From Hirschia maritima DSM 19733 (GTDB taxonomy: Bacteria; Pseudomonadota; Alphaproteobacteria; Caulobacterales; Hyphomonadaceae): a stretch of DNA of 64,000 nucleotides. The stretch spans positions 186,001 through 250,000 of the forward strand of contig NZ_KB899548.1 of NCBI RefSeq assembly GCF_000378345.1, in the 5' to 3' direction. Both the position numbers and the translations under genes were made by a program. This document shows positions 15,840 to 21,249 of the stretch, one piece after another (the first letter of the stretch is position 1; every line of letters begins with the position of its first letter). The notes under the pieces were generated by a model, which was not told the DNA's origin, ran no database searches, and saw only the letters and a program-made list of their open reading frames with translations.

Positions 15840-16814
15840 ATGGAAGGTTATTCTATAGTAGCTATAGTTGGGATCGTATTTGCAGTATTTGTTGTTATGA
15901 GTGCGGTTCAGGTCGTGCCTCAAGGACACATGTATACAGTTGAAAGATTTGGTCGATATACAACGACTTTATCACCGGGGCTTTCTTTCATCGTACCGTT
16001 TTTTGACCGCATTGGTCACAAAGTGAATATGATGGAAACTGTGCTTGATGTTCCTCAACAAGAAGTGATCACAAAAGATAACGCGATGGTTTCATGTGAT
16101 GCTGTTGTGTTTACACAAGTGGTTGATGCAGTGCCTGCTTCATATGAAGTGAATGATTTGCATCGTGCGATTACAAACTTGGCGCTGACCAATATCCGTA
16201 CCGTTGTTGGTTCTATGGATTTGGATGAAGTTTTATCCAACCGTGATGACATCAATGCGCGTCTATTGAGCGTGATTGATGCTGCAACAAACCCTTGGGG
16301 CGTGAAAGTGACACGTATCGAGATTGCGGATTTATCACCGCCAGCTGACATTACTGAAGCTATGGCGCGCCAGATGAAGGCAGAACGTATCAAGCGTGCT
16401 GAAATTCTTCAGGCGGAAGGTGATAAACAATCTGCAATTTTGCGAGCTGAAGGTGAAAAACAATCTGCAGTACTTCAAGCAGAGGGACGTAAAGAAGCAG
16501 CTTTCCGTGATGCAGAAGCGCGTGAACGTGAAGCCGAAGCGGAGGCTAAAGCTACAAAAGATGTATCTGAAGCTATTGCAGCTGGTGATGTTAACGCTGT
16601 GAATTACTTCCTTGGTCAAGAATACATTCAAGCATTTAAAGCGCTTGCGTCATCTGACCAACAGCGCACAGTGATTGTTCCTGCTGAGTTTGCAGGCATT
16701 GCAGGTGCGATTGAAGGAATTACATCTTTGACTGGCACCAAGCCGACAAAAGGCGATAAGGGTGGCTCTGGTGGCAATGGTGGATCAGGTTCATCATCGC
16801 CGTGGGAAGGATAA
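15840..16814 (+). CDS. qmcA: SPFH/stomatin-like membrane protein (QmcA/paraslipin type)
   Basis: 324 aa. An N-terminal membrane helix (about residues 5-25) and an SPFH/band-7 domain (VPQGHMYTVERFGRY onward) are followed by a coiled coil with repeated AEGEKQSAxLxAEG units (about residues 195-240). The glycine/serine-rich tail (GGSGGNGGSGSSS) is likely disordered. These proteins oligomerise in membrane microdomains and protect or present proteases. The NfeD partner is immediately downstream, the standard stomatin/NfeD gene pair. RBS GAAAGGGACG. Confidence 0.9.
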   Translation: MEGYSIVAIVGIVFAVFVVMSAVQVVPQGHMYTVERFGRYTTTLSPGLSFIVPFFDRIGHKVNMMETVLDVPQQEVITKDNAMVSCDAVVFTQVVDAVPASYEVNDLHRAITNLALTNIRTVVGSMDLDEVLSNRDDINARLLSVIDAATNPWGVKVTRIEIADLSPPADITEAMARQMKAERIKRAEILQAEGDKQSAILRAEGEKQSAVLQAEGRKEAAFRDAEAREREAEAEAKATKDVSEAIAAGDVNAVNYFLGQEYIQAFKALASSDQQRTVIVPAEFAGIAGAIEGITSLTGTKPTKGDKGGSGGNGGSGSSSPWEG

Positions 16815-16828
16815 TTCTCAAATGTCAC

Positions 16829-16853
16829 AAGGCGGACTTAATTTGTCCGCCTT
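16829..16853 (+). promoter_or_regulatory. Hairpin between qmcA and nfeD
   Basis: A perfect 9-bp stem AAGGCGGAC / GTCCGCCTT with loop TTAATTT follows the qmcA stop by 14 bp. The following TATCCTC is not a real U-tract, so partial attenuation or mRNA 3'-end protection is more likely than full termination. Confidence 0.5.
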
Positions 16854-16897
16854 TATCCTCAATAATTTTTAGCAATAGAGATGAAGGAGCCATTTAG

Positions 16898-17362
16898 ATG
16901 GATGTTTTGTTTAGTGAACTGACGGTCTGGCACTGGATTGCACTTGCTTTGGGCTTATTGGTTGTTGAAATTGCCGTAGGCACATTTGATCTTTTGTGGA
17001 CTGCAATAGCAGCTGGTATCACTGCTTTATTTGCATCAGTTGCACCGGAAAGCATGTCGAGTTGGGAATATGAAGTTGGTGTATTCGCAATTGCGGCGGT
17101 CGCTCTTGTGCTTGCTGGGCGCACTTTGTTTGGTGGTTTAAGAAATCCCAAATCAACCCACCCAAACCTGAATGATCGTTTCGCAAATATGGTTGGTCAA
17201 ACTGCGCTGGTAACGAGCGAATTTGTTGGCGGTTTTGGACGCGTTAAGATCAATGACTCAGAATGGCGCGCCCAGTTTGATGGGGGCACCGCTCCAACTG
17301 TTGGAGATAGCGTAGAAATCGTATCAGGTGAAGGTTCGACTGTAGTTGTCAAAACTGCGTAA
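16898..17362 (+). CDS. NfeD-family membrane protein
   Basis: 154 aa short NfeD (NfeD1b type, without the ClpP-like protease domain). Two or three N-terminal helices (to about residue 85) are followed by a soluble OB-fold domain with GQTALVTSEFVGGFGRVKIND and DSVEIVSGEGSTVVV. It works with the preceding SPFH protein in membrane quality control. An AAGGAG ribosome site precedes the ATG. Confidence 0.9.
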   Translation: MDVLFSELTVWHWIALALGLLVVEIAVGTFDLLWTAIAAGITALFASVAPESMSSWEYEVGVFAIAAVALVLAGRTLFGGLRNPKSTHPNLNDRFANMVGQTALVTSEFVGGFGRVKINDSEWRAQFDGGTAPTVGDSVEIVSGEGSTVVVKTA

Positions 17363-18775: not shown

Positions 18776-19156
18776 ATGGTTCTCAAAGTTCGTAAAAACA
18801 AAAGTCCACAACCACCTAAACCATGCGCTCTAACGCACTGCATGGCGTTTATATCAGGTGCATGGGCACCCAATGTCATTTGGGTTTTGAGGGAGGGGCC
18901 TAGGCGATTTAGTGAATTGCGAATAGATATTCCGCCAGTATCAGCCAAGGTTTTGTCTACGCGCCTAACAGAGCTTGAAGCGCGTGGAATTATTGAACGA
19001 AAAGTGCTGCCGACATCGCCGCCTTCTGTGGAGTATAACCTCACCGAAATTGGAAAGGAGATTGTGCCCGCGTTAGATGCGTTGGTTGCAGTGGGGCACA
19101 AATTGAAAACACAGGGGCATGGAGTAGATGATGTTGCGGCCAAGTTGGCTAAGTAA
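18776..19156 (+). CDS. HxlR-family winged-helix transcriptional regulator
   Basis: 126 aa. The HxlR DNA-binding domain covers about residues 15-110: WAPNVIWVLREGPRRFSEL, then the recognition region VSAKVLSTRLTELEARGII and the wing VEYNLTEIGKEI. Two cysteines near the N-terminus (CALTHC) occupy the place of the redox-sensing Cys of many family members. It is divergent from the GST operon, which it probably represses (inference). The first in-frame ATG is used. Confidence 0.9.
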   Translation: MVLKVRKNKSPQPPKPCALTHCMAFISGAWAPNVIWVLREGPRRFSELRIDIPPVSAKVLSTRLTELEARGIIERKVLPTSPPSVEYNLTEIGKEIVPALDALVAVGHKLKTQGHGVDDVAAKLAK

Positions 19157-19159
19157 AAT

Positions 19160-20119
19160 TTAGTCCAGTTCTGACGCTTCTTGAGAACCTCTCACAGCGA
19201 GGGCATCTGCGCGTTCATTGCCTTCATCACCCGCGTGACCTTTGACCCATTTCCATTCAATTTTATGGCGGCTGCAGGCTTCATCGAGAGCTTGCCATAA
19301 GTCTTTGTTTTTGACCGGCTTCTTTGCGGCGGTTTTCCAGCCATTTTTTTTCCAGCCATGTATCCACTTTGTTAGGCCATCTTTGACGTATGTGGAGTCT
19401 GTATTGAGAATGACATTTGATGGATTTGTGAGGGAATTGAGGGCTTCAATGGCTCCCGCCAACTCCATTCGGTTGTTTGTGGTGTCTTTTTCGCTGCCAA
19501 AGAGTTCGGTTTCCTGTCCATCAGCGACGACCAAAGCTCCCCATCCACCCGGACCGGGGTTTCCTGAACAGGCTCCATCTGTCCATATATGCACACTGTC
19601 CGAAGGGGCTATGCGAGCTTTGTGAGGGGGAGTGTGATCTGCCTGTGATACTCCGTCTTCCTCAGGGGAGACGGGGGCTTGTCCAGCTGCTTCGCGAGAA
19701 CCTTTTACTGCGAGGGCATCAGCGCGCTCATTGCCTTCATCGCCCGCGTGACCTTTGACCCATTTCCATTCAATTTGATGGCGACTACACGCTTCATCGA
19801 GAGCTTGCCAAAGGTCTTTGTTTTTGACTGGCTTTTTTGCGGCGGTTTTCCAGCCATTTCTCTTCCAGCCATGTATCCACTTCGTCAGGCCATCTTTAAC
19901 ATATGTGGAATCGGTATTTAGCTCGATCTTGGAAGACGCTTCTAGCGAGTTTAACGCTTCGATCGCCGCCTTTAATTCCATTCGGTTATTGGTGGTGCTG
20001 GGGGCACTTCCATAAAGTTCGGTCTCCTGGCCATTATTGATAATGAGTGCGCCCCAGCCGCCCGGTCCAGGGTTTCCCGAACAAGCGCCGTCTGTCCAAA
20101 TTCGAATAGTATCAGTCAT
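19160..20119 (-). CDS. rnhA: Tandem two-domain ribonuclease HI
   Basis: 319 aa made of two complete RNase HI domains (about residues 1-143 and 175-319) joined by a linker of about 30 residues rich in Pro/Ser/Glu. Both carry the full catalytic set: D10, E48, D70, H124 and D134, repeated exactly 171 residues later at D181, E219, D241, H295 and D305. Long identical runs between the domains ([19 protein letters not shown]) and similar DNA show an internal gene duplication. RNase HI cleaves the RNA strand of RNA/DNA hybrids. The usual enzyme is a single domain of about 150 aa. I start at the ATG reading MTDTIRIW, which matches E. coli numbering; 36 upstream in-frame residues look unrelated. It follows thrB, as in many alphaproteobacteria. 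Confidence 0.93.
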
Positions 20120-20286: not shown

Positions 20287-21249
20287 TTATCCACCGTAAT
20301 CAAAAAAGCCCTTGGCTTTGCGGTGAAATCCTAGTTTTTCAGCATACTCTATAGGATTTTTAGGCCTTACTAGGGCATCTTTGGGGGTAGCTGCCCAATC
20401 TACTAATCGTGTCAGGAAAAAGCGCATAGCAGCACCACGACACAGGATTGGTAATGCTTCTTTTTCGGCGTCTTCGAGGGCGCGAATTGATTGATAACCT
20501 GATATTAGCGCACGTCCCTTAGTCGCGTTGTATTCACCGCGCCCATCTTCAAAACACCATGCGTTCAAACAGATCGCAATGTCGTAGGCGAGTGCATCAT
20601 TGCATGCAAAATAGAAATCGATCACGCCAGTGAGGTCGTCCCCAAGGAAGAATGCGTTGTCTGGGAATAGATCAGCGTGAATGACGCCGGTAGGCAGGTT
20701 TGACGGCCACTTTTTTTCGAGTTCTGCTAAATCAGATTGTATCTGCGCAGTTAGTCCGCCATTTATTGCGTTGGCTTCGGCTTCCCGACCTTCAAACATA
20801 GGACGCCATGACTCCACAGAAAGTGAGTTTTGGCGGCTTCCTGAATAGTCGGACAAAGCACTATGAAACTTCGCAAGTCCAATACCTAATTGACGACATT
20901 GCTCTACATTTGGTCGGCTCAGCGACATACCGGTTAGGAATGTGATGATAACTGCTGGGCGACCGCACAAAGTACGCAACGCTTTACCATCATTGCCTTT
21001 GACAGGAAGAGGGGCCGGATAATTCTTGGATGCCAAATGATCCATGACGCCCATAAAATAGGGTAAGTCTTCTTCATTCACCCGTTTTTCAAAAAGTGTG
21101 AGAATGAACCGACTCTTTGGGGTTTCCAGCAAATAGTTGGAATTTTCCACGCCTTCAGCAATGCCCTTAAAAGCGATTGCGGGGCCAATGTCATAATCTG
21201 CGAGAAAAGTATCAAGCGATTGATCGTCAACTTCGGTGTATACTGCCAT
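20287..21249 (-). CDS. thrB: Homoserine kinase (ThrB, choline-kinase-like fold)
   Basis: 320 aa aminoglycoside-phosphotransferase/choline-kinase-type homoserine kinase, the alternative ThrB used by alphaproteobacteria and pseudomonads. It makes O-phosphohomoserine for ThrC. The catalytic loop GVIHADLFPDNAFF (Brenner H-x-D) and the metal-binding VIDFYFACND are clear; MAVYTEVDD is the normal start. Its place between ispH and rnhA is conserved, although two membrane-protein genes intervene towards ispH here. Confidence 0.93.
   Translation of the reverse strand: MAVYTEVDDQSLDTFLADYDIGPAIAFKGIAEGVENSNYLLETPKSRFILTLFEKRVNEEDLPYFMGVMDHLASKNYPAPLPVKGNDGKALRTLCGRPAVIITFLTGMSLSRPNVEQCRQLGIGLAKFHSALSDYSGSRQNSLSVESWRPMFEGREAEANAINGGLTAQIQSDLAELEKKWPSNLPTGVIHADLFPDNAFFLGDDLTGVIDFYFACNDALAYDIAICLNAWCFEDGRGEYNATKGRALISGYQSIRALEDAEKEALPILCRGAAMRFFLTRLVDWAATPKDALVRPKNPIEYAEKLGFHRKAKGFFDYGG

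Follow-up and report, generated by a model that had tools for sequence, protein, structure and literature searches.

Bacterial RNase HI is usually small, at ~150 amino acids, and built of a single domain, although restriction to one domain is not required for activity. In Drosophila RNase H1, as presented in the available part of the report, an extra, non-catalytic unit on a long linker is proposed to aid processivity (PMC7657459). According to excerpts of two further studies, retroviruses and plant Tat elements carry a dual RNase H whose native domain is degraded (PMC10508981; PMC9040795), and the accessible portion of another names mycobacterial MSMEG_4305 as an RNase HI–CobC two-domain protein (PMC7466739). 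Work on the redundancy of prokaryotic RNase H genes discusses, in its available sections, several RNase HI genes per genome (PMC1950709); in these sections, as in those of a review of RNase H diversity (PMC9719913), the term “tandem” is absent. Within the partial texts retrieved on tandem, dual or duplicated RNase H (a body of literature with subscription journals mostly outside it), no tandem RNase HI from a bacterium was described, nor did the portions of papers retrieved for RNase HI together with Hirschia describe one.

Here, “the window” denotes the whole 64-kb stretch of Hirschia maritima DNA that was analyzed. One of its minus-strand open reading frames encodes a protein of 319 amino acids with two domains, and thus departs from the usual single-domain, ~150-residue format of bacterial RNase HI. 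The initial annotation had proposed that this frame holds two full RNase HI domains, which our profile searches confirm: two PF00075 matches lie within the one open frame, their scores (175.3 and 172.2 bits) exclude a chance match, and domain 2 is offset from domain 1 by 171 residues. The NCBIfam rnhA model NF001236 likewise matches the protein in two stretches, at 434.6 bits against a cut-off of 160. At E 0.001, PF00075 is the only Pfam domain in the protein, with no other domain and no hybrid-binding domain found. A profile search returned no PF00075 match elsewhere in the H. maritima genome, and the tandem gene is the sole type I RNase H family (rnhA) gene of that genome. We note that an HxlR-type regulator gene (window 18776–19159) is convergent with the tandem rnhA, and three bases separate their stop codons. 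Coordinates are collected in Table 1.

Table 1. Features of the tandem rnhA locus, in window coordinates
Feature	Coordinates	Strand	Evidence or remark
Tandem rnhA gene, 319 aa, ATG at 20119	19160..20119	-	ORF; PF00075 x2; NF001236
RNase HI domain 1, residues 5-141	19697..20107	-	PF00075, 175.3 bits
RNase HI domain 2	19184..19597	-	PF00075, 172.2 bits
Linker stretch, residues 148-173	19601..19678	-	Predicted unstructured, pLDDT <50; sequence unconserved in sister species
Domain 1 C-terminal half, residues 68-141, probable gene-conversion region	19697..19918	-	Limits set by the tested half, not by mapping
Domain 2 C-terminal half, residues 239-312, probable conversion partner	19184..19405	-	Limits set by the tested half, not by mapping
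thrB-like kinase (PF01636), upstream neighbour	20287..21249	-	Kept beside rnhA in G001

The genus set comprises three Hirschia genomes: that of H. maritima, which contains the window (G000), a complete genome taken as Hirschia baltica (G001), and G002. The tandem rnhA is present in the first two, and G002 encodes a single 148-residue protein. An assembly artefact or false duplication finds no support and is extremely improbable. Comparison of 143 codons between the domains shows 69 identical, 49 with a silent difference and 25 with a changed residue; ~22% of bases differ between the copies, and the identical tandem layout recurs in the complete sister genome. For the H. baltica chromosome, the available part of its report gives 3,455,622 bp, at a coverage of 116.6x Illumina and 34.0x pyrosequence (PMC3368421). 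Given the base difference and the complete sister genome, misassembly is therefore very unlikely, and we rejected it as the source of the two domains. The initial annotation had also raised the prospect of a single-domain gene in relatives together with a broken copy here; the former exists in G002, but the H. maritima copy is unbroken.

The surroundings of the gene are partly shared. The same thrB-like kinase, for which we assume the name homoserine kinase, lies beside the tandem in both species and is 87% identical between them. The name homoserine kinase also appears beside rnhA in one plasmid record match (H8), and a thrB-like gene is present in 55 of 80 rnhA loci of named genomes and in 20 of the 33 first loci, which had short flanks. 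No thrB-like gene was found in the 18 kb around the G002 rnhA. At this locus (L135:7978-10914), rnhA adjoins an SPFH/NfeD pair resembling the pair at window 15840–17362, and on its other flank what is presumably an enoyl-CoA hydratase-like gene replaces thrB, such that one flank is common and the other rearranged. RNase HII is present in all three Hirschia genomes; consequently, the duplication is no stand-in for a missing rnhB, and we discarded loss of RNase HII as its cause.

Careful analysis of the residues reveals that D10, E48, D70, H124 and D134 (E. coli numbering), which we take to be those that act in RNase HI catalysis, are intact in both domains of both H. maritima and H. baltica. 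For the H. maritima protein this had been claimed from their repetition at +171; D181, for example, is the domain 2 counterpart of D10. Similarly, W81, W85, W90 and the lysines that presumably form the basic handle of RNase HI are kept in all four Hirschia domains, with the exception of K96Q in domain 1 of H. baltica. AlphaFold, run with 19 sequences, predicts two RNase H folds (mean pLDDT 80.3, pTM 0.49) separated by an unstructured stretch of 26 residues (residues 148–173, pLDDT <50). Owing to the low pTM, the model holds no fixed arrangement of the domains. The RNase H fold is found again in the PDB, with TM-scores normalized by target length of 0.84–0.90 among the 50 matches listed. All 50 are RNase HI structures at 50–59% identity, the best being E. 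coli structures such as 2z1j, and every PDB chain that matched did so in a single stretch. Loci L065 and L072 did not enter the structure alignment. The linker differs in sequence between the two species; delimited in the same way in each, it is 34 and 36 residues long. Judged from sequence and predicted fold, the protein is a member of bacterial RNase HI by every tested feature except the single domain, and each half is an ordinary, complete RNase HI that is predicted to cleave the RNA of RNA–DNA hybrids.

Two such halves could nevertheless divide the labor, one head serving as the main nuclease and the other mainly binding the hybrid or a partner such as SSB. Domain 1 lies slightly further than domain 2 from the relatives in both species, and position 60 (presumably the position at which K60 of E. 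coli RNase HI contacts SSB) reads E, T, N and K across the four Hirschia domains but K in 71 of 97 relatives. Against this division stand the intact active sites of both domains and the fact that just five residues, none of them catalytic, separate domain 1 from domain 2 in both species. We consider it quite unlikely.

The history of the gene was analyzed with trees of the separate domains, for which 129 domains gave 101 rows after collapsing identical proteins and repeat loci; topology tests used 14 of these rows. The four Hirschia tandem domains form one clade without G002 in the full-length (0.996), N-half (0.921) and C-half (1.0) trees, and all four have V138, a position with R in 88 of 97 relatives. 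In the N half, the best topology pairs domain 1 with domain 1 and domain 2 with domain 2. Grouping by genome is rejected there (AU p 0.019), and with it separate duplications in each of the two species, while one further topology is not rejected (AU p 0.089). The clade without G002 and the N-half pairing together date the duplication between the split from G002 and the separation of the two species. In the trees of separate domains, which the initial annotation had called for, the N half pairs by domain and the H. maritima C halves group by genome; the full-length tree leaves the grouping of domains 1 and 2 undecided. For the N half, the alignment-based history is well supported: a single in-frame tandem duplication of rnhA would have occurred in the common ancestor of H. 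maritima and H. baltica, postdating the split from the single-domain G002 lineage. The earlier proposal of an older, in-frame duplication agrees with the N-half topology, by which it predates the split of the species.

The C half behaves differently. Within H. maritima, DNA identity between the two domains is ~65% for the N half but rises to 89% for the C half. In the N half this is below the identity of the orthologues (75% for domain 1 and 72% for domain 2), and in the C half above it (81% and 84%, respectively). In the C-half tree, both H. maritima domains group together (0.869). In the C half, codon choice coincides at 47 of the 65 positions where both domains share a residue; the N-half figure is 12 of 42 (Fisher p ~1e-5). 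Of the informative sites in the N half, 8 support grouping by orthology, 1 by genome and 4 the cross grouping, and the respective C-half counts are 3, 8 and 2 (orthology vs genome, p 0.0098). Permutation tests gave 0.016 and 0.06, values that are uncorrected for six pairs, and the domain 1 pair between species also reached 0.029.

Our best reading is that intragenic gene conversion probably homogenized the C halves at a later time, in the H. maritima lineage. Stronger constraint on the C half could instead produce uneven similarity with no conversion at all. Control pairs of relatives do agree slightly more in the C half, with a mean N-to-C difference of 0.073, and all five topologies for the C half, orthology among them (0.068), pass the AU test at the 0.05 level. 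Constraint of this kind seems unlikely, since the agreement of silent codons between the H. maritima domains jumps equally, by 0.437 from N to C, a jump unmatched in any of the 739 control pairs, although these lack mutual independence. With gene conversion, domain 2 may have been the donor and domain 1 the recipient. This direction fits an excess of the same kind between H. maritima domain 1 and H. baltica domain 2, which is weaker (p 0.038) and is reached by 4% of control pairs. The long, nearly identical runs had been ascribed to an older duplication. The duplication is indeed old, but the runs lie in the C half and, given the likely later conversion, would be partly recent.

How far the tandem extends among other genomes was addressed with four overlapping samples from one phylum, and the resulting rarity refers to the relatives sampled there. 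In the family sample of 105 genomes, a Pfam RNase_H search of the kind proposed at the outset found two PF00075 matches in five (G000, G001, G005, G008 and G083), with two-domain proteins in H. maritima and H. baltica only; long stop-to-stop frames with a single PF00075 match (e.g., 330–392 aa) were not counted as tandems. We rejected G008 and G083, whose second match is on another contig, and G005, in which a pair of contigs, 94.7% alike across 2,286 bp, have one single-domain gene each. These contigs (L035, L038) carry the same single-domain rnhA locus and probably represent two strains in one assembly. In the order sample, counted like the class sample from per-genome rows, 11 of 398 genomes have two matches and 2 of 398 (again G000 and G001) have a tandem. 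Among the nine others, eight have their matches on separate contigs, and G193 has one gene broken by a stop; in G169, G277, G370 and G386 the pieces end at contig ends, where a tandem split by assembly is possible. The class sample (genomes at least 90% complete), which does not include H. baltica, has a tandem in 1 of 387 genomes, that of H. maritima; in the 11 others of the 12 with at least two matches, these are on separate contigs or far apart. In the phylum sample of 397 genomes, the fused protein as query matched 23 at E 1e-60, a threshold below which a divergent tandem would be missed. Both domains were covered only in H. maritima, at 728 bits vs at most 249 for the rest.

A collection of 135 loci gives a similar picture. 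An RNase HI match is present in 132, the other three being rnhB loci (L114-L116), and two full domains in one frame occur only in L001, L002, L003, L005 and L134, which are the two known genes repeated. Of at least 587 loci in named genomes, the scan covered the 80 best; records near H. maritima may be absent from it. Among the 15 matches listed for 810 matched plasmid records, the span is at most ~600 bp, too short for two domains. We therefore find that the tandem RNase HI is rare among relatives and lineage-restricted, and that the view of bacterial RNase HI as normally single-domain holds for the other relatives examined in all four samples.

Smaller repeats at the rnhA start were seen elsewhere in the collection. 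In Bosea sp. BK604 (L109:6058-6456, NZ_SLZF01000013.1), the 5′ end of rnhA is a direct tandem array of 110 bp with 3.6 copies and 96% matches, which runs into the full rnhA to give four copies of the start region in a row; this repeat is partial, with no domain duplication. L097 and L100 have, at ~5.9–6.1 kb, an extra match of 22–24 residues to the RNase HI N-terminus, in another frame and adjoining the full rnhA, and Tandem Repeats Finder detected no array at this short match.

The initial annotation had held that the fusion is kept under selection and called for dN/dS of the two halves. By NG86, the comparison between species gives dN 0.094 and dS 1.82 for domain 1, and dN 0.092 and dS 1.49 for domain 2; domains 1 and 2 within H. 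maritima give dN 0.116 and dS 1.17, and dS was incomputable for two N-half pairs. Because dS is near saturation, only the direction of these values is safe, and it points to purifying selection on both domains, consistent with the earlier claim.

Such constraint bears on whether the second head matters. In a neutral fusion there would be no functional gain: each half must fold and cut well enough, and clean loss of one half is rare. The single-domain enzymes that suffice in the other relatives examined, the unconserved linker sequence and the lack of a fixed domain arrangement in the model are all compatible with this. Both species, however, retain the tandem with every catalytic residue present in each domain, and dN is low against dS in each; a neutral fusion is a possible but somewhat doubtful explanation. 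With moderate confidence, we favor an ordinary RNase HI made bivalent by one in-frame duplication, with both heads constrained and putatively active, and with a probable later conversion of the C half.

At its simplest, such an enzyme would work through two catalytic heads that act independently and are joined by a flexible tether, and three steps may be proposed: (I) the ancestral in-frame duplication, (II) a later conversion inside the gene that would have evened the C halves in the H. maritima lineage, and (III) in the present protein, the binding of one head, which would bring its partner to a higher local concentration at that hybrid. We infer that both heads are active, that they bind bivalently and that the cell benefits; a gain in binding or processivity from two heads may follow. 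A stronger proposal, which we put forward only tentatively, is that the tandem evolved into a bivalent RNase HI which remains on a hybrid and cuts it several times per binding event, or bridges two hybrids, its heads kept alike by intragenic conversion. If true, this would be a bacterial route to processive removal of hybrids without a hybrid-binding domain.

With its single-domain congener, a natural two-headed RNase HI offers a ready comparison for the effect of linked heads on affinity, processivity and R-loop removal, and it provides a compact case of domain duplication followed by probable intragenic gene conversion. Each half of the Hirschia protein resembles bacterial RNase HI (RnhA; PF00075, NF001236) in being complete with catalytic residues and handle, but there are two domains per chain, an arrangement for which no PDB chain was matched. 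With the RNase H1 enzymes that have hybrid-binding domains, as far as the available texts describe them, it shares an extra unit on a linker; there the unit is small and non-catalytic, whereas in Hirschia it is a second catalytic domain, with no N-terminal hybrid-binding domain. The dual RNase H of retroelements, again as described in partial texts, similarly joins a pair of adjacent RNase H domains within a single polypeptide. In contrast to its degraded native domain, both domains are intact in Hirschia, in a free-standing cellular enzyme; the Pfam search of the tandem protein found no further domain and hence no reverse transcriptase. Finally, MSMEG_4305, from the accessible portion of its report, is also a bacterial RNase HI within a two-domain protein, with an unrelated domain as partner. 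Compared with these systems, the tandem RNase HI of Hirschia is a true variant of a well-known enzyme and opens no new class of system.
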